From Sphingomonadales bacterium CG_4_10_14_3_um_filter_58_15 (GTDB lineage: Bacteria; Pseudomonadota; Alphaproteobacteria; Sphingomonadales; Sphingomonadaceae): 53,290 nt of DNA. This document shows, piece by piece, positions 4,403-33,847 of this stretch. The DNA lies in NCBI GenBank assembly GCA_002783865.1, contig PFJE01000034.1:1-53290 (forward strand), written 5' to 3'. The position numbers were made by a program, and so were the translations under genes. The notes beneath the pieces are model-generated. The model made no database searches, was not told the origin of the DNA, and saw nothing but the letters and a program-made list of their open reading frames with translations. Within the stretch, counting starts at the first letter, position 1. Every line of letters starts with the position of its first letter.

Positions 4403-7400
4403 CCGAGTCAACCGATCAGGATCCCGCCCAGCCGGAGCAGCCGAGCAAGGAAGTGATGGAACAGCGCGGCATTGTGGCGTTTATGGCGCGCAACGGGGTG
4501 GCGGCCAATCTGCTGATGATTTTCCTGATCGTTGCCGGGATCATGTCCTACCGGACGATCGTTCAGGAGGTTTTCGCCGAAAACAGCCTCGACACGATCC
4601 AGATCAGCGTAGCCTATCCCGGCGCCACACCCGACGAGATCGAGGAATCGATTGTCCAGAAGATCGAAGAAGCGGTGGAAGCCGTCGAGAATGTCAAGGA
4701 GGTCAAATCCACTGCCGCTGAAAATGTCGGTACGGTATCCGTCGAACTGCAACTCGGGGCGGATATCGACCGGGCGCTGGACGATATCAAGGCCGAGATT
4801 GACCAGATTCAATCCTTTCCGGATGACGCCGAAGAACCCGATGTCCGCGAACTCACCACCCGGCAAAGCGTCGTCCGCATTGCCATTTTTGGCGATGTGT
4901 CCGAGAACGCCCTGAAGGAGACCGCCCACCGCCTAGAGGATGCGCTGGCTGCGCTGCCGGAAATTTCCTTTGTCGATACCAGCTCGATCCGCGATTACGA
5001 AGTGTCGATCGAGGTGCCGCAGGATACGTTGCAAGCCTTTGGGCTATCCTTAAATGACATATCGCGGACGGTTGCCGCCAGCAGTCTGGATAGCCCCGCC
5101 GGTTCGATCGATACCGAGACCGAGGAAGTCCGCGTCCGGACCATCGGGCAAAATTATAACCAGAAGAATTTCGAAGACATCGTGCTGGTCAGCAATGAAA
5201 ATGGCGCGATGATCCGGCTCGGGCAGATCGCAACTATCCGCGACGAGTTTGAGGATTCCGACCTTGTCTCGCTGTACAACGGCAAGCCGGTCGCTTTTGT
5301 CGAGGTGTTCCGGACCAGCGACGAGCGCGTGCTCGACGTCTCCCGCGCCACCAAGGACTATCTCGAAGGCGAATTCGCGCATTCCCTGCCAGAGGGCATT
5401 TCCTACGCGATCTGGAGCGATGACAGCGAGTTGCTCGATGATCGCCTCAGCCTGTTGCTGAAGAACGCCGCCATCGGCCTGTTTCTGGTTTTGCTGGCGC
5501 TCACCCTGTTCCTCGATATCCGGCTCGCGGGGTGGACCGCGCTGGGCATTGGTGTGACCTTTATCGGCGCGATTTTCCTGCTCGATATCGCGGGTTCCAG
5601 CATCAACATGTTCTCGCTGTTCGGTTTCATCCTCGCGCTCGGGCTGGTGGTGGATGACGCGATTGTCGTCGGCGAAAGCGTCTATGCCCGCCGCGAAAGC
5701 GGGCGCACCGGTATGGGAGCGGCGATCAGCGGCGCGCGGCGGGTTACCATGCCGGTTATCTTTGCGGTGCTGACGACGGTAGCCGCCTTTTCGCCGCTGT
5801 TCGCCATCGGCGGTGTTATCGGAAAGATATTGGCCGATATTCCGCTGGTCGTGGTCTCCGTCCTGTTCCTGTCGCTGGTCGAAAGCCTGCTGATCCTGCC
5901 CAATCATCTCAGCCATTTGCCAGCGCCCGGCACGGTCAACCGCAATCCGGTAACCCGCTTTTTCGAGCGGGTTCAGGAGAAGGTCGACGTCTATTACCAG
6001 GCATTCGTCAACGGCCCGCTTGATCGGGCGGTACGCTATTCCGTTCGTATGCCGTTCGTCATATTGGCAGGCAGTGTCGCGTTGCTGATCATCATCGGAT
6101 CGCTGGTCCCCGCCGGCATTATCAAAAGTTCCTTCTTTCCCGCCATTGAGGCGGATGTCGTCACCGCCAGCCTAGAGATGCCCGCCGGAACGACGATTGC
6201 GGAAACCGAGAGAATTGCCCGCCTGATCGAACAGGGCGGCCGCGAAGCCTATGCGAAATTTGAAGCGCGCACCGATGAGGGCGATCCGTCGCCGCTGCGC
6301 GCCATCTTCACGCTCGTCGGAAAGGCGCCAAGAGCCTCCGGACCCAATGCCCAAAGCGGCGGTTTTGCTTCTAATATTGCCAGCGTTCAATTCAGTTTCA
6401 TCCCCGGAGATCAGCGGGAACTGGCATCACGGGATTTCGAAAATGCCTGGCGGGAAACCGTCGGTCCGATCGTCGAAGCACGCTCGCTGGTCTTTGCGTC
6501 CGACCTGATCTCGATTGGCGCGCCGGTTGATGTCCAGATTTCCGATCCTGATCCGTCGGTGGTGGAAGCCGCTTCGACGAGACTGATGGAGCGGCTGAAC
6601 CGCTTTGCCGGCGTATTCGATATCGAAAGCGATCAGGATGAAGGGCTGACGGAAATCCAGCTGCGGCTGAAACCCGAGGCCCGTTCGCTGGGTGTCACCT
6701 TGCAGGACGTGGCGCTGCAGGTCCGTGCGGCGTTCTTCGGTAGCGAGGCGCTGCGCGTGCAGCGGGGCCAGGAAGATATGCGCGTCTATATCCGGCTGCC
6801 GGAAGCGGAACGCAATTCGATTGTCGATGTCGAACGGTTTCGCGTCCGCGTGCCCGGCGGCGAAGTCCCGCTCGCCACTCTGGCCGACGTGTCCTTTGGT
6901 CAAGCACCGGCGATCATCCGCCGGACCGATGGCAGGCGGATTACCACGGTTACTGCCGATATCGACACCCATGTGGTCACCAGCCAGGAAATTGCCACCG
7001 CCCTGACCAATGACATCATGCCCGCCCTGCAAGCGGACTATCCGCAGTTGCTGTACAGTTTCGGCGGCGAACAGCAGGAGCAGCAGGACTCCTTCGGCGA
7101 TCTCGGGCTCGCCTTTCTCGCCGCCCTGCTGATGATCTATGCCCTGCTGGCGATTCCGTTCCGCTCCTATTTGCAACCGCTGATCATCATGGCGGTAATT
7201 CCGTTCGGGATCATTGGCGCGCTGATCGGCCATCTTATCCTCGGCTTGCCACTTGGCGTGCTCAGCATGTTTGGCATCATCGCCCTGTCCGGGGTGATCG
7301 TGAATGGCTCGCTGATCCTGATCGACTTCATCAACGAAAATCTGAGCGACGGCATGGCCATTGAAGAGGCAATCATAAGCGCGACCAAATCCCGCTTTCG

Positions 7401-25126: not shown

Positions 25127-27472
25127 CTAACACCGGGCCAATGCTGACCAGATGTCGCCCTCCATTGCCTCGACCGAACCCAACAATTCACCAGATTTCC
25201 TGAGATTATCGAGCATGCCAACAGCGCTCGCGCGTGCTCGACAGGCCTGTTGCGTCTGGCCAGCCCGGTCCGCGATAATCGCCAGCGCCTGGTAGGAACC
25301 GACAAGCTTGTTGGCCGTGGTTGCGCTCTTGTCTCGATGGTAAGCTGCAAGGTAATTCTCGATCACTTTCGATTGCGCCGTAATTGCTTGCGCGAAATAA
25401 CCCTCTTCCGACATTTGCTGCGCCACAGCCTGCTGGACCGATGCAGCAAAACTACGCATGGCAGCATCATTGGGTTCAACCGCCAAAAGCCGGTCGACGC
25501 TATTGGTCGCTATGTTCAAAAATTTGCGCGCCTCGGATTGCCTGCCAGGCAAGCCATCCGCGGTGCCATGCCCAACATAAGCATTGTAAGCCCGCAAATA
25601 TAGTAAATTGGGCTCGTTCGGCTGATCTTTGATGATGGCCGCCAAACGTCTGTCAGCTTCGCTGAAATGTTTCAGGCCTTCAATGAGTTCATCTGACAAA
25701 TATCCGGCGAGGCCGAGATAATGCTCTGCCAATGCCTGATCCAGACGAACCTCGTAGTCGCGAGGCGAGACGTCGCGGTACTTTCGTGTTTCGCTCGACA
25801 AAGTAACGGCAAGATTGCGCAGCGCATCCGCATCTCCGGAAAGCATGGCAAGTTCGAGTTGGCCAAAACGCACATCACTGCGGGCTGACCGCCATTCGGC
25901 GCCACGCCGGTCTTCAGGTACGCCACCCAGCAAATCCAGAGCAGTCGCCACGCTGGCGCCGGCCTTGTCCAAATCGATATCGGCATGGGCTTCCAGCAAC
26001 GCTCGCTTGGCCAGAATACGCGCGCTCAGAGTTTTGGCTTCGGCCGTTTCGATGCCGTCAAGAAGACGGATAGCATCTACGAGATCGCGGCGCGCGCCTG
26101 CCCGGTCGCCTTGGTTGGGCTGACCCGGTATGCCGCGGATCAGGGCCAGCTGGAGAAAGCCGCGAGCGGCTTCCAGACGCAGCGCCGGAGAGGATCCCGC
26201 GTTCTGCGCGAGCTTCGACAGATAGGTCTGCGCTCGCTTGGTCAGTGCCACGCGCGCTTCACCGGTTCCGACAACCCGCGAAAGCCGGTTCTCGAGATCA
26301 AAAATCATGAAGCCGGCCAGATCCCGGACTTCAGCAAAACGGGCCGCCTCTGCCTGCCGTGCCCGTTCAGCCCGCGAATAGGCGACCGTCGCCACAATCA
26401 ACGCGCCGATGATTGCGAAGGCTGCTGCGCTGCCCAGCACCGTGCCCAGGCGATGGCGTTTGACAAAAAGGGCAGCGCGATAGCGCCATCCCCCCTGTCT
26501 CGCCGTGACCGGCATGTCGTCGATCCACGCGGACACATCGTCGCGCATCGCATCGACGGTGGCGTAGCGCTTGTCCATGTCTGTTGCGGTTGCTTTTTCG
26601 ACTACCGCAGAAAGGTCGGTGTCGCGATCCGGTATGAGCGCTGCGAGAACCCTGCCCAGAGAATATGTGTCTGCGGCCGTCGTGACCCGCAAACTGGTCA
26701 GACGTTCCGGTGCGGCAAAGCCCAGCGTGAGGCTGAGACTTGCAATTGACGGTGAAGCGGGAGTTTCCGGCGTGTCATCGTCCCGAACATAGGCATCAGC
26801 GGGCTTGGCGATGCCAAAGTCGATCAGTTTGACGGTTCCGTCTGACGTAACCAGGATGTTGGAGGGCGTCAGATCGCGGTGAACCACCAGATGCCGGTGC
26901 GCAAAAGCCACCGCATTGCAGATGGTCACGAAAAGCGCAGCTCTGCCGCGGGGGTCCAGAGCCTTGCTCTTTGCCCAGTCGAGAACCGGTTCGCCATCGA
27001 CATATTCCATGACGATGAAGGGAAGTCCTTCAGGGGTCTCGCCGCCATCGTACAGCTGGGCAATATTGGGATGGCGCAACTGCGCCAGTGTCTGCCGTTC
27101 CTTGCGCAGCCGATCCGTCAGCGACGTGGACAGCAATCCGGGTTTGACCAGTTTGATCGCTGCGACATGGTCGAAATCGCCCACGTCGCGTTCTCCGCGA
27201 TATACCGATCCCATTCCGCCGCGGCCGATGAGGCTGACAATGCGATAGGCACCAATCCTTTCGGGGATCGGGTCATCGGTGACCGTTTCGGTGGCGGCTC
27301 CGGTGCGCAACATCGCGTTGCGGTCTGCTCGCCGCATCGCTTCGATACGCGTACGCAGAGGCCCGTTATCGGTTATCCGCTGCGTCAGCCACGCATCGCG
27401 ATCGGCCTCGGCAATGTCGAGCATGGCCTCGAACAGCATTATGGCTTCGCGTTCAAGCTCGCCTTCGGTCAC
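25127..27472 (-). CDS. Transmembrane Ser/Thr protein kinase with large C-terminal helical/TPR-like region
   Basis: GRGGMGSVYRGER, AAIKLVKPG, HRDLTPSNILV, LIDFGIAKP, GFAAPERLT; TM LGSAAAFAIIGALIVATVAYS. Confidence 0.9.
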   Translation of the reverse strand: MTEGELEREAIMLFEAMLDIAEADRDAWLTQRITDNGPLRTRIEAMRRADRNAMLRTGAATETVTDDPIPERIGAYRIVSLIGRGGMGSVYRGERDVGDFDHVAAIKLVKPGLLSTSLTDRLRKERQTLAQLRHPNIAQLYDGGETPEGLPFIVMEYVDGEPVLDWAKSKALDPRGRAALFVTICNAVAFAHRHLVVHRDLTPSNILVTSDGTVKLIDFGIAKPADAYVRDDDTPETPASPSIASLSLTLGFAAPERLTSLRVTTAADTYSLGRVLAALIPDRDTDLSAVVEKATATDMDKRYATVDAMRDDVSAWIDDMPVTARQGGWRYRAALFVKRHRLGTVLGSAAAFAIIGALIVATVAYSRAERARQAEAARFAEVRDLAGFMIFDLENRLSRVVGTGEARVALTKRAQTYLSKLAQNAGSSPALRLEAARGFLQLALIRGIPGQPNQGDRAGARRDLVDAIRLLDGIETAEAKTLSARILAKRALLEAHADIDLDKAGASVATALDLLGGVPEDRRGAEWRSARSDVRFGQLELAMLSGDADALRNLAVTLSSETRKYRDVSPRDYEVRLDQALAEHYLGLAGYLSDELIEGLKHFSEADRRLAAIIKDQPNEPNLLYLRAYNAYVGHGTADGLPGRQSEARKFLNIATNSVDRLLAVEPNDAAMRSFAASVQQAVAQQMSEEGYFAQAITAQSKVIENYLAAYHRDKSATTANKLVGSYQALAIIADRAGQTQQACRARASAVGMLDNLRKSGELLGSVEAMEGDIWSALARC

Positions 27473-28041
27473 CCCTCGTTCCCGTCGATCGCCGTCATCA
27501 GCCAGGCTCGCGCGGTTTGCCAGCGCCGCTTGACTGTCGGCTCCGAAAGGCCGCTAACCTCGGCGATATCGGTTATCGTCATGCCGCCAAAATAGCGCAT
27601 CTCTACAATCTCCATCAGTTGCGGGTCGATAGCTCCCAACCGAATCAGCGCAGAATCGAGCGATTCCAGATCAAATCTTTGTTCGCCGTCGATCCGGGTA
27701 TTGAGTTCGACCTTCTGATGCCGGCGTTTGTCAGACAATTTTGCCCGGGCATGATCGGTCAGAATGTTGCGCATCAGACGCGACGACAGCGCCATGAAAT
27801 GCGCCCGATCGGCGAGCGCAATCTTGTCGATCCGGATCAGCTTCAGAACGGCATCATTGATCAAATCGCCCGTAGACAGCGAACTTCCGCCTTCACCGCG
27901 CAGTCGCGCCGCCGCGATTTGCTTCAATTCGGGCAGCAGATGCTGGATCAGTCGATCACGGGCGGATGCGGCTCCATCGCGCCATTGCACGATCATCTGC
28001 TGCGTGTTGTCTGTCCCTCGTTTCAATGCCGGTCGCTCCAT
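27469..28041 (-). CDS. ECF-type RNA polymerase sigma factor (Sig-70_X6/TIGR02999-like; ORF opens at 28059)
   Basis: RLIQHLLPELKQIAAARLRGE...LSTGDLINDAVLKL...MRNILTDHARAK...VEMRYFGGMTITDIAEVSGLSEPTVKRRWQTARAWL; ATGA overlap with kinase gene. Confidence 0.88.
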   Translation of the reverse strand: MERPALKRGTDNTQQMIVQWRDGAASARDRLIQHLLPELKQIAAARLRGEGGSSLSTGDLINDAVLKLIRIDKIALADRAHFMALSSRLMRNILTDHARAKLSDKRRHQKVELNTRIDGEQRFDLESLDSALIRLGAIDPQLMEIVEMRYFGGMTITDIAEVSGLSEPTVKRRWQTARAWLMTAIDGNEG

Positions 28042-28255
28042 TCCCGAGACCGCTATCAAAACGAAAAACCAAGAAAAATCAATGGTTCACCCGAAATGAA
28101 TCTCTGTGTCTTGTGGCGGGACTGAAGCAGGGCGATTGGCCAAGGCTGATGCCACCATCAATTTTCCAAATAATAATTTGATCTGCTTTCTCGATATTTT
28201 GCGCGGTGATTAGTGAGGCCGCAAAATTTTTTGGTTTTTACCCGTGGGGGAAATT

Positions 28256-31200
28256 ATGATCGAACCAGTCCGTGCCAGCTGTCAGGATATCAGGCGTTCA
28301 GCGGCTTTTTCCATTCGAAACTCGGCAAGTATTGCCGCTCTGGCGACTGCGATTCTGTTCCTACCAAGTCCGGCGTCGGCGCAACAGGCTACTCCGGGAT
28401 CGTCAAAATGTCCGATTGATGCCGATGGCGTGGTTACGTGTAGCGGCGACGTCCGCGCGGGCTTCCGTGCCAGCCTCGATCCCGCAATGCGCGAATTGCG
28501 GTTTCGCAACCTGACCCAGCCGATCGCGCCCGAGACGCTTTTCGCGGCCATCGACGTCCGCCCCGTCGGCGATTTGACGCTCGATCTGGACGCCAGTGTG
28601 ATCATTAATTCTCGCTTGCCGCGCTCCTCGTTTACCTATGGCGCGGCAGGGCGGCCCGACGCCGCGATCACGCTCCTCTTTGACGAGGCCGTGCTGACAA
28701 CCGCAGAGGTTACGAGCGCCGCCGCTGTCACCGTCGATGGCTTTGGCGATTCGCGCGATTTCAATATGGGCGCATTCCTGATCGCCGACGCTGATATTGT
28801 GAATTTCACCAATAGCGGCAGTATTTTGTCGAGAAATGAGACTGCGAGCCTCAATCGTCGATTGACGAGCGGTGTGCGGATCATCGGCGCAGACCAGATT
28901 GCGTTCCGCAACGACGGAACGATTAGCAATATTGGCATCCAGTCTACCGGCGTCTTTCTCGAAGGCCGTTCCGTCCAATTTATCAATACTGGCAACATAA
29001 CGGCGACAGCTTTTGAGTCAGGTAGAAACGTGACCTTTCCGGCTCTGGGTATCGCAATCGCTACGCCGAGTGCGGCAGCAAATCTGGAGGTCCGCAACAC
29101 AGGCACGCTCCAATCGACCGACGCCCCGCGTGCCGCCGAAAGCATCTTCGGATTTTATGGTCGGGGCACGATTGATGTCGACAATAGCGGAACCCTTGCT
29201 TCCTCGGGCCTCCAGATCAGTGCCGTTGCCCAGAATAGAACCGACGATCTGGTCGTTACCCTGAACAATAGCGGCCCCGTTTCGAACACAGAAATTGGCG
29301 TAACTACCCCTACATCCTTTGATCTCGCATTCGAAGGCCGCACTGCGATTTGGCCGGTGGATATGCCCCCGATCGGGGTTCGCTACCGCAACGCTGACAT
29401 ATCGTTCGTCAATAGCGGTCGCATAACGACGGCAACGCTTTTTGTTGCCGCCAATGCCGACAATGTTCGGATCGATCTGACGAATCGCGGTGCTTTCGAC
29501 GGCCGTCTACCCGGTGCGTTGTTCGGAAGAGGTAGGGCCAACGATCCGACAAATCTTATCACGGCATCTGGCGTTGCACCCTTAACTGGTAACGCTCTCG
29601 TCCGCATCGTCAATGAAGGTACCATCACACCTGAGGGTAACGGCGAGGTGGGTCACTCAATTCTCAATGGCTTTTCCAGTCACGGTATCGAAGTGATCAA
29701 CAGCGGGCGCATTGCCATCAATTTTCCGAGCGACACCAAAGATTTCTTCGTATTTGAAGTTACTCAGGGAGCAACGACAAGAACGGTTGGGGCCGAAGCG
29801 AGTTACGTTTTTGATGGGTTGGTAAACGTCGCCAATAGTGGCTCACTTGCCATCGACGTGATTACCGGATTTCAGGAATCCTCACTTATCGCGATCAGTG
29901 CCATTTCACGTATCGATTTGACCAACTCCGCGCCGATCACGCTGACCAATCGCTTCATTGAAGGGACCTACACCACTACGGGAGTCCGACTATACGGTCT
30001 AAGTGGCGCGACCTTTGACAATAGCGCAACCATTTCGGTCACCGCGCCAACCGGCAATGACGGCATCGGCATCGCCTTTTTGGAAACGTCGCTGAGCGAA
30101 GCTGATGGTGCCCGCTTGATTTCTGAGGGACGTCTGCGGGGCTATTCGCGAGCGGACGATATTGCCAGCGTCGTCACACTCAACCTCAATGGCGGCGATA
30201 TCATGGTCGATGGACCTGGCAGCTACGGCATTTTTGGAATAATCGGTGACGTCACAGACGACCCCGATCATCTGCTTTCTTCGCGTACAACAAACAATAG
30301 CGCAACAGCAATCGGCAATGGTTCCGCCAGTGCGCGCATCAATATTGCCAATGGCGTCAGCGTGATCGGAGGCACCGGCCCCAGCGCGGCCATCGTTCTC
30401 GAGGGCGCGGGGCGAATGATACTGAACAACGCCGGATCCATCATCAGCCGGGACGACGCGACCGGCGGTGCTGTCGTGCTGGGCAATATCAGTACGCTGA
30501 GGACCACCTATGGCCGCATGGCGACGCCGGACGGGTTTACGTTGTCGCTGACTGACAGCGTGAACAGCGGCACGATCCGCGCGGATAACGGCCGGGGCAT
30601 CTGGGTCCGCTCGGGCGGCGTCGCCAACTTCATCAACCGGGGCCTGATCTTGGGCGGAATTGCAGCGATCGATGTCCGCGACGTCGGTCAAATCGATAAC
30701 CAAGCGGGCGGCATTATCGATGGTGCGATATTGCTGGCCGGTGCCGGTTCGACGTTGCGAAATTCCGGGCTGGTGCGAATGACTTCCGCTGCCGGCACAA
30801 CCAGCACGATCAATGGCGACTATACGCAGCTGGCAGGGGGGGCGCTGACGCTGCGCGGCACCGATCGGTTCAATACGACCGGCAATTTCATCCTCGCCGG
30901 CAATCTCAATCTGGCGTTGGGAGCGCCGTCAACAGCTGCAATCATCGATGTCGGCGGTGATCTGTCGCTCGATGCTCGGCTGAACGTTACCGACGCGGGC
31001 GGTTTTGGCTCGGGTGTTTACCGGCTGTTCGATTATGGCGGCACTCTGTCTGGCAATGGATTGACACTGGGTGCGCTGCCAAATGGCGCGAGCGGCAGCA
31101 TCCAGACCGCAATCGCACAGCAGATCAATCTCGTCGTCGGCACAAATCAGGTCCAGTTCTGGGACGGAGCCGACAGCGCCGCGGACGGCACCATCGATGG

Positions 31201-33847
31201 CGGCACGGGGACATGGAACAACAGCAGCACCAACTGGACTCGCTCGGACGCACTGACCAACGAAGCGTGGGGCGGCAAGTTTGCGGTGTTCCAGGGTATG
31301 CCAGGCACGGTAACGATCGCAACCGACGGGATTACCGCCACCGGCCTGCAATTCGCAGTCGATGGTTACCGGCTTGAAGGCGGCGATCTGGCGCTATCTG
31401 CGCCGGGCCTGATCCGCGTCGGTGACGGGACGGCAGCTTCCAGCGCCATGACAGCAACGATCGCATCGTCCATCACCGGCACCGGCGGGGTCGAAAAAAC
31501 CGATTTCGGAACGCTGATCCTGGCCGGTGTCAACAGCTATTCAGGCGGCACTCGCGTTACCGGAGGCACACTGCGGATTGGTGCGGATACAGCGCTTGGC
31601 GGCGCAGCAGGGGGTGTCACGCTCGACGGCGGCACCCTTGGCCTGACCGAAGGCCTTGCCAGCGCGCGTGCGTTTACCATCGGGATGAACGGCGGCACAA
31701 TCGATTTCGGGGGCGACAATGTGATGCTGTCTGGCCTGTTGGGCGGCAGCGGAAACCTCAGCTTGGCCGGATCGGGCGTGCTGTCCTATAGCGGCAATGG
31801 CAGCGGATATGGCGGCCTTGTCACTGTTGGCGGCGGCACATTGTCGCTCAATGGTTCGCTAGGCGGACGGGTGCGGGTCGACACCGGCGCGCGACTTGGC
31901 GGGAATGGAACGTTGGGATCGCTCAACGTCGGCGGTACGCTAGCGCCCGGCGGCAGCGGCTCAGCTAGCAATGATGCGCCAGCCACCGCTAATCTGGCCG
32001 TTGCCAATTTGGCGTCGGCACAAGGCACGATCGGCTCCAATGCCCCTCAACCACAACCGGCTGTAGCCGATCCATTACCGCTGCCACCACAATTGACCGG
32101 AGCAGCGCTGGCGCGGGCGCTGGCCGCTGGCGGGATGATCATCGGCGGAGAAAATGCGTCCTATACTGCTGGGGCATCGATGATCACCGGCGGCGAGAAT
32201 GTCGCCTTCGATCTCGATATGATCATCGGCGGGGAAAATCTCGCTTTTGCTGATGCACTGATCCAGGGAGGCATCAACACACCCTTGGCCAGTGACATGA
32301 TCACAGGCGGCGAGAATATCACCTTCGCCTCGGGCCAGAATATCGGCACGCTGACGATCAACGGCGACCTGAGTCTTGATGCGGGCAGCTTCTTCGAGGT
32401 CGAGGTCGACGATCAGGGCAATAGCGACCGCGTGGTCGTGCTCGGCTCGGTCAGCCTCGGCAATGCCACGTTGCGCGTGCTCGACTTGCTCGGCGGCGAC
32501 TTTCTCGGTTCCAACCCTTTCAATTATTTGATCATCGACAATGACGCGATGGATGCAGTGAACGGCATCTTCGGTTCGGTCACCAATGAACTGGCCTTCC
32601 TGACGCCCACCGTGACTTACACCGCTGGCGACGGCAATGATGTGCAGCTGACGCTGACCCCGAATGGTGCGCCGCCACCACCGCCTCCCCCACCGCCGCC
32701 GCCGACACCGACGCCGGTACCAACACCGGTGCCGACACCCACACCGACGCCAACACCGACCGGGCCGCTGTTCCCGACCGTGGCCAAGACGTTCAACCAG
32801 ACCAGCGCGGCGACCGCTCTCGACGGCTTTGGCCAGAGCGCAGGCAGCGACAGCCTGCTGGTCTACCGCAATGTCCTGTTCACCACGGTGGCGCAGGCGT
32901 TGCGCGCGTTCGACACCTCGTCAGGGGAAATCTATCCAACGCTGCTGGCGGACAGCCTTGATGCCGGCATGGCCAGAGCGGGCCGGCTCACCGCACGCTC
33001 GCATGAAGCCTTTGGTGATGGCTGGGGCATCTGGGGCGGGCTCACCGGCCGCACCGGCACGGTCGACGGCGACGGCAATGCCGCCAGCACCTCGCATGAC
33101 AGCTACGGCTTTGATATGGGCATGGATTATCGCGGCCCCGACAACAGTTGGGCCATTGGCGCCAGTGTCGGCTATAGCAACAGCGATCTCGAGATTGCCG
33201 AACGGCAGTCCAGGGCCAGCGGCGATGCCTGGCATGTCGGCGCCTATGGCCGCTATGGCACCGGCGGCCAGGGCATTACCGCCACCGCCGCGGTCAGCTA
33301 TAGCAATAGCGAGCATGATGTGACCCGCGGGATCAGCGTCAACGGCCTTGCGCGCACCGCAACCGGAAGCGTTGATATCGACACGATCGCGCTCGAAGGC
33401 GAGCTGAGATACGGGTTCGGAACGGTGAAAGGCTGGTCGATGGGACCGACGGTCTCCATCCAGCATGCGAGCAGCGATCTCGGCCGTTTTGCCGAGACCG
33501 GAGCGGATGCGCTCAACCTCTCGGGCAATGGCGCCACCGACAAGCGCACCCGGCTCGGCGGCGGTATCTTCGCCAACTGGCAAGGCACCAAAGGCGGCCT
33601 TGATGCGAGCGCGCAATATGTCGGCGGCAACAGCAATCTGGCGCAGGTCCAGCTGACCATGGCCGGCGCGCCCGGCATCACCGTGCCCATCCGCTCCGCC
33701 CGCACCGACGGCTCCGGCGGTCTGTTCACCGTCGCCGGTGAATATGATCTGGGCGGCGGCTGGACCATTGGCGGCAATATCCGCAGCTTCATCACCAAGG
33801 ATGAGAAAAGTGCCTATGGCAGCGTGACGGTGGGGTGGCGGTTCTAG
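28256..33847 (+). CDS. Large autotransporter (type Va): signal peptide, beta-helical passenger, C-terminal beta-barrel
   Basis: SIAALATAILFLPSPASAQQ signal; many N-(S/T)-G-x-I passenger rungs; proline-rich linker; barrel region ending in YGSVTVGWRF*. Confidence 0.92.
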   Translation: MIEPVRASCQDIRRSAAFSIRNSASIAALATAILFLPSPASAQQATPGSSKCPIDADGVVTCSGDVRAGFRASLDPAMRELRFRNLTQPIAPETLFAAIDVRPVGDLTLDLDASVIINSRLPRSSFTYGAAGRPDAAITLLFDEAVLTTAEVTSAAAVTVDGFGDSRDFNMGAFLIADADIVNFTNSGSILSRNETASLNRRLTSGVRIIGADQIAFRNDGTISNIGIQSTGVFLEGRSVQFINTGNITATAFESGRNVTFPALGIAIATPSAAANLEVRNTGTLQSTDAPRAAESIFGFYGRGTIDVDNSGTLASSGLQISAVAQNRTDDLVVTLNNSGPVSNTEIGVTTPTSFDLAFEGRTAIWPVDMPPIGVRYRNADISFVNSGRITTATLFVAANADNVRIDLTNRGAFDGRLPGALFGRGRANDPTNLITASGVAPLTGNALVRIVNEGTITPEGNGEVGHSILNGFSSHGIEVINSGRIAINFPSDTKDFFVFEVTQGATTRTVGAEASYVFDGLVNVANSGSLAIDVITGFQESSLIAISAISRIDLTNSAPITLTNRFIEGTYTTTGVRLYGLSGATFDNSATISVTAPTGNDGIGIAFLETSLSEADGARLISEGRLRGYSRADDIASVVTLNLNGGDIMVDGPGSYGIFGIIGDVTDDPDHLLSSRTTNNSATAIGNGSASARINIANGVSVIGGTGPSAAIVLEGAGRMILNNAGSIISRDDATGGAVVLGNISTLRTTYGRMATPDGFTLSLTDSVNSGTIRADNGRGIWVRSGGVANFINRGLILGGIAAIDVRDVGQIDNQAGGIIDGAILLAGAGSTLRNSGLVRMTSAAGTTSTINGDYTQLAGGALTLRGTDRFNTTGNFILAGNLNLALGAPSTAAIIDVGGDLSLDARLNVTDAGGFGSGVYRLFDYGGTLSGNGLTLGALPNGASGSIQTAIAQQINLVVGTNQVQFWDGADSAADGTIDGGTGTWNNSSTNWTRSDALTNEAWGGKFAVFQGMPGTVTIATDGITATGLQFAVDGYRLEGGDLALSAPGLIRVGDGTAASSAMTATIASSITGTGGVEKTDFGTLILAGVNSYSGGTRVTGGTLRIGADTALGGAAGGVTLDGGTLGLTEGLASARAFTIGMNGGTIDFGGDNVMLSGLLGGSGNLSLAGSGVLSYSGNGSGYGGLVTVGGGTLSLNGSLGGRVRVDTGARLGGNGTLGSLNVGGTLAPGGSGSASNDAPATANLAVANLASAQGTIGSNAPQPQPAVADPLPLPPQLTGAALARALAAGGMIIGGENASYTAGASMITGGENVAFDLDMIIGGENLAFADALIQGGINTPLASDMITGGENITFASGQNIGTLTINGDLSLDAGSFFEVEVDDQGNSDRVVVLGSVSLGNATLRVLDLLGGDFLGSNPFNYLIIDNDAMDAVNGIFGSVTNELAFLTPTVTYTAGDGNDVQLTLTPNGAPPPPPPPPPPPTPTPVPTPVPTPTPTPTPTGPLFPTVAKTFNQTSAATALDGFGQSAGSDSLLVYRNVLFTTVAQALRAFDTSSGEIYPTLLADSLDAGMARAGRLTARSHEAFGDGWGIWGGLTGRTGTVDGDGNAASTSHDSYGFDMGMDYRGPDNSWAIGASVGYSNSDLEIAERQSRASGDAWHVGAYGRYGTGGQGITATAAVSYSNSEHDVTRGISVNGLARTATGSVDIDTIALEGELRYGFGTVKGWSMGPTVSIQHASSDLGRFAETGADALNLSGNGATDKRTRLGGGIFANWQGTKGGLDASAQYVGGNSNLAQVQLTMAGAPGITVPIRSARTDGSGGLFTVAGEYDLGGGWTIGGNIRSFITKDEKSAYGSVTVGWRF
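32135..32335 (+). repeat. Five in-frame copies of a 13-aa (first 15-aa) repeat: MIIGGENASYTAGAS / MITGGENVAFDLD / MIIGGENLAFADA / LIQGGINTPLASD / MITGGENITFASG
   Basis: Copies start at 32135, 32180, 32219, 32258, 32297; spacing 45, 39, 39, 39 bp. Confidence 0.9.
32672..32761 (+). repeat. Low-complexity proline-rich linker P(11)TPTPVPTPVPTPTPTPTPT between passenger and barrel
   Basis: In-frame CCN/ACN-rich codons directly visible. Confidence 0.92.

Follow-up and report, generated by a model that had tools for sequence, protein, structure and literature searches.

Folding of an autotransporter passenger during secretion is believed to start from its last rungs. The closest described structure is that of the Serratia marcescens subtilase autotransporter Ssp (PDB 8e7f). 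In its stalk, the final three rungs are similar to an autochaperone domain, and a Ca2+ is coordinated by Glu553, Asp561 and the backbone of Pro529 and Gly532 (PMC9977779). Among surface proteins whose tandem repeat number differs among relatives, Periscope Proteins contain highly identical, individually folding domains that make a rod (PMC9704523).

Here we analyze a stretch of Sphingomonadales DNA of 53,290 nucleotides (the window), in which one ORF encodes an 1867-aa protein. Judged from its sequence, this protein is a type Va (classical) autotransporter, a bacterial surface protein with a rod-like stalk. A Pfam search places the C-terminal β-domain PF03797 at aa 1596–1845 (E 3e-32) and a passenger-associated transport repeat (PATR, E 3e-9) upstream of it, and finds no match between the two. 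Across the 1867 aa, the PF12951 and TIGR02601 profiles of Pfam and NCBIfam match aa 1082–1113 only. Over the 410-aa segment that was modeled, the passenger is β-helical according to AF2 strands and Foldseek matches to Ssp, Hap, EspC and Ag43. The N-terminus has a hydrophobic stretch ending in PSPASAQQ, a candidate signal peptide as judged by eye.

Ssp is the best match both by sequence (phmmer) and by fold (Foldseek of the AF2 model, E 1.5e-5). The two proteins share the terminal stem, with PATR-type rungs, an APGNGIGTL turn and the acidic residues that are Ca2+ ligands in Ssp. In contrast to the window protein, the Ssp turn, which takes part in holding the Ca2+, is short, without an insertion or repeats, and the Ssp passenger is a protease.

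An insertion in the turn of the terminal stem

The array comprises five in-frame units of 15, 13, 13, 13 and 13 aa at 32135–32335, exactly the regular block, with a first unit of 45 bp and 39-bp units after it, that the earlier note had described. The motif [ML]I.GG[EI]N occurs five times; at least one copy appeared in 8 of 2000 protein shuffles, and never more than one. Self-identity at lag 13 is 0.49, versus 0.00–0.18 at the remaining lags from 5 to 25. The last unit runs straight into the conserved stem segment, as proposed earlier. The block lies near the stalk base, and the repeats turn out to end a ~128-aa insertion that the earlier reading had missed.

Searching aa 1066–1475 against solved structures by phmmer matched 8e7f in two pieces (query 101–172 to chain 432–504, and query 296–407 to chain 500–611). 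The pieces meet at the turn SVAPGN|GIGTL, and query residues 173–295 are left unmatched. Together with the Foldseek rank, this two-piece match points to aa ~1237–1364 as a single insertion in a short turn. The alignment thus gives good support to the view that the repeats form the distal half of an insertion splitting the turn LAPG^QNIGTL of the last autochaperone-like stem (Table 1).

Table 1. Features of the autotransporter gene, in window coordinates.
Feature	Position	Strand	Evidence
Autotransporter ORF, 1867 aa	28244..33847	+	ORF list; GTG start as listed, ATG at 28256
PATR, aa 1084–1112	31493..31579	+	Pfam PF12951 and TIGR02601
Pro1235-Gly1236, first residues of the split turn; Pro matches in alignment the Pro that coordinates Ca2+ in Ssp	31946..31951	+	phmmer to 8e7f, column check, PMC9977779
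Whole insertion, aa 1237–1364: Ala/Pro linker, PLPLPPQLTGAALARA element, GG, repeat array	31952..32335	+	absent from 21/29 stem turns, Ssp and insert-free alignment rows; AF2 pLDDT 30–49
Conserved PLPLPPQLTGAALARALAAGG element; predicted short helix aa 1286–1294	32072..32134	+	identity to relatives; both AF2 models
Repeat unit 1 MIIGGENASYTAGAS, 45 bp	32135..32179	+	
Repeat unit 2 MITGGENVAFDLD, 39 bp	32180..32218	+	
Repeat unit 3 MIIGGENLAFADA, 39 bp	32219..32257	+	
Repeat unit 4 LIQGGINTPLASD, 39 bp, most degenerate of the five	32258..32296	+	
Repeat unit 5 MITGGENITFASG, 39 bp, joins stem strand QNIGTLTINGDL	32297..32335	+	
Terminal stem past the insert (GQNIGTL onward)	32336..32662	+	phmmer and column check; Foldseek rank 1 = 8e7f, E 1.5e-5
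Glu1387, equivalent of Ssp Ca2+ ligand	32402-32404	+	alignment, column check
Asp1395, equivalent of Ssp Ca2+ ligand	32426-32428	+	alignment, column check
Pro/Thr-rich linker joining stem to barrel	32670..32760	+	tandem repeats
Autotransporter β-barrel domain	33029..33778	+	PF03797

Based on an inferred numbering offset of 27, which fits all four residue types, the Ssp ligands would be P502, G505, E526 and D534 of the 8e7f chain. They align here with Pro1235, the QNIG stretch past the insert, Glu1387 and Asp1395. At the two acidic positions, each of the six array proteins keeps Glu and Asp.

Applying a stem profile to the loci examined gave 29 distinct turns, for which we counted the spacing from PG to IGTL. 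It is 2–5 residues in 21 turns and 115–183 in the other eight. Each of the eight long inserts lies in the last stem present in its ORF, three of these ORFs (G026 contigs C56, C58 and C33) being cut by a contig end, and the internal stems of the long-insert proteins L021, L022, L023 and L026 are short. The insert is not universal: protease-like autotransporters have a last stem without it, and the G016 autotransporter of the same genus reads ISPGGVGPIQ at the turn and has no array. GGEN arrays occur in six of the eight long inserts. The inserts of L026 (3-1148, -) and L037 (1210-2547, -) hold a different Ala/Pro/Gln/Glu-rich sequence, with MIVEHQAQ, VEFAEQQPQ and EMVEHQPQ pieces.

These natural insertions of 115–183 residues in a tight Ca2+-associated turn, found in six array proteins and two others, suggest that the site accepts large loops. 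They are a natural test of how far an autochaperone can be split.

A lineage-restricted repeat kept as peptide

The six arrays hold 40 units of 12–16 aa with the consensus [ML]-I-x-G-G-E-N-x-[PA]-[FHY], in 5, 6, 6, 7, 7 and 9 copies. The copy-number comparison advised in the earlier note was made between species and paralogs and gave this range of 5–9. Four window units do have the 13 residues given in that note; across relatives, however, 12 is the commonest length (23/40) and 13 is a local variant. The module order of the relatives is that of the window, with a Pro-rich linker, a short helix and then the repeat units, and the PLPLPPQLTGAALARALAAGG element is 62–95% identical to four of them. 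Several of their units are degenerate, as is unit 4 of the window.

The core is conserved at I2 (38/40), G4 (38/40), G5 (38/40), E6 (34/40) and N7 (37/40). As DNA, the window units are 46–74% identical (18–29 of 39 bases). Among differing codon pairs of the conserved core, 19 of 27 are synonymous and 8 non-synonymous, with differences distributed 8/4/23 over the codon positions. Since the DNA has diverged and core change is mainly synonymous and at third positions, the repeat is kept as a peptide and not as DNA. Array dN/dS is 0.20–0.39 in the computable pairs, a rough value because the repeats are short and hard to align; in the Ala/Pro linker preceding the array it reaches a near-neutral 1.2 in some pairs. 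As read from these substitutions, selection is keeping the core peptide while copy number shifts by tandem duplication.

In L024, a tandem structure of 36 and 72 nt is still detectable. L024 and L025 (both 1-1146, -) are paralogs of one genome, G026, with nearly identical arrays and diverged upstream rungs. Because pS is 0.05 in their arrays versus 0.68 in the upstream rungs and 0.23 downstream, we suggest gene conversion across the array stretch. Both contigs stop 81 residues past the IGTL strand, a pattern resembling an assembly break at a repeat.

Two DNA-level candidates were rejected. Tandem Repeats Finder reports no array at 32135–32335 and no recent minisatellite in the window, despite the 36-/72-nt periodicity in relatives. 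As for a mobile or palindromic element, the MIxGGEN DNA pattern occurs in the window only at the array, and inverted repeats nearby are weak.

A genome search finds the array once in the source genome, and true arrays occur in 4 of 33 congeners. No array homologs were found in the family and order samples (~400 genomes each, overlapping) or in viral contigs. The class sample gave three short borderline matches (E 1e-4 to 1e-3), in which a paired GGxN motif scan found no array. Overall, among roughly 1,000 genomes sampled outside the congeners, none gave a clear case. A plasmid match (25% identical, E 0.01) was taken as chance.

The motif had not been recognised on first reading, and the profile search bears this out: no Pfam or NCBIfam family matches the repeat, and PDB sequences hold no relative. 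In the literature search, the motif strings appeared in no paper and no paper on autotransporters of these genera was found. The repeat is real and, within the genomes sampled, lineage-restricted, and apparently undescribed; it makes up a family of peptide repeats not represented in Pfam, NCBIfam or PDB sequences.

Known repeats differ from it. The single PATR of the window protein, a 30–32-residue β-helix repeat, ends 125 aa before the insertion. The GGEN units do not qualify as PATRs or β-helix rungs, having no PF12951/TIGR02601 match and no AF2 strands; the block is distinct from the rungs of the rest of the passenger, as first proposed. The 9-residue RTX nonapeptide GGxGxDxUx (PF00353) gives no match either. 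Variable copy number recalls Periscope Proteins; unlike their repeats, however, the array consists of short, divergent units in a side loop with no predicted fold.

Predicted structure and possible roles of the loop

In the AF2 model (13 aligned rows), the stem flanks have pLDDT 82–92 and the insert 30–49. Modeled alone, the 9-unit G023 array has a mean pLDDT of 35 and a pTM of 0.13. Neither model has strands in the insert or array; both contain a short helix, at LTGAALARA in the window protein. Because only six array sequences were aligned, the low insert pLDDT is weak evidence of disorder. The insert is thus predicted to be flexible and largely unfolded, and the distinct folding module once suggested finds no support in these models.

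We consider it about an even chance that the insertion is a membrane-proximal, flexible, multivalent motif loop, its binding being inferred. The insertion would loop out of the β-helix near the outer membrane as a largely unfolded tether, consisting of an Ala/Pro linker, a short helix and n copies of [ML]-I-x-G-G-E-N-x-[PA]-[FHY]-x-x. Even with the turn interrupted, both of its ends could still meet and let the stem fold as in Ssp. The array would expand and contract by in-frame tandem duplication while selection retains the core peptide of each unit, and the motif may bind some partner. A fuller version is doubtful, though we put it forward tentatively: a multivalent binding loop of a previously undescribed, lineage-restricted repeat (12–16 aa, MIxGGENxP[FHY]) inserted at the Ca2+ turn in the autochaperone-like terminal stem, where the membrane-proximal folding nucleus would also serve as an array of ligands tunable in copy number.

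The main alternative, which we regard as somewhat unlikely, is a passive spacer, a hydrophilic flexible loop of which only the composition matters, the repeats being a by-product of tandem duplication. Variable copy number and unit length, the similar-length inserts of different sequence in L026 and L037, the lack of a predicted fold and the near-neutral Ala/Pro part would all suit such a spacer. However, five core positions are 85–95% conserved over the 40 units, with mostly synonymous change, and array dN/dS of 0.2–0.4 also argues against it.

On the other hand, the strong GGEN conservation could mark a fold instead of a binding motif. A small solenoid or β-meander beside the stalk (strand x-P-F-A-x-M-I, turn G-G-E-N), which would be a new fold, might explain the regular 12–13 period and near-invariant core, as well as a GGEN turn separating the hydrophobic positions 1, 2 and often 10. 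We find it improbable, given that the array has no strands in either model and no PDB relative, and that position 10 varies among F, Y, H and Q.

Least probable is a processing site or a Ca2+/transition metal module using E, N and H: the array does lie near the passenger base, where a cut would release the passenger, E6 and N7 are conserved, and His occupies position 10 in 14/40 units, but one cut needs no multiple copies, Pfam gives no RTX or other metal-binding match, and a His-type form of the metal binding once proposed is disfavored in this copy because position 10 reads Y, F, F, L, F and none of the five window units contains His.

Linker repeats and neighboring genes

We also notice repeats in protease-like autotransporters of the same genus. 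In L119, L116–L118 and L031–L033, a GGEN-like unit or VENVAINGG-type repeats occupy the linker that joins the protease-like domain to the stem, outside the terminal turn. L119 (G000:C135) is the second autotransporter of the source genome, carrying TLINPRTVLFAAHC and GGDSGGPL motifs that look trypsin-like by eye. Its linker has one GGEN-like unit, MIMGAEHQAH (5150-5170, -), which scores like true GGEN units on the profile; the same or a similar unit occurs in G003, G015 and G026, and MIMGSEHQAQ in G023. The MIxGGEN DNA pattern, once loosened post hoc to admit this match, is found one more time in the source genome, in this gene. The protease-like autotransporters of congeners (L031–L033, L072, L073) carry a 12-residue VENVAINGG-type tandem repeat in the corresponding linker. 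A common origin of the two repeats was rejected, the profile score falling within shuffles.

Divergent from the autotransporter gene, the window encodes a Hanks-type Ser/Thr kinase (781 aa) and a PF07638 ECF sigma factor (25127-28059, -). In ECF43 systems, a Hanks-type kinase phosphorylates the sigma factor (PMC13147305). Relatives of the window pair adjoin array autotransporters on L021, L022 and L023, and such pairs lie next to large surface proteins in G015, G016, G023 and G026. Since the G016 pair adjoins the array-free autotransporter, the pair tracks the large surface protein and not the repeat.
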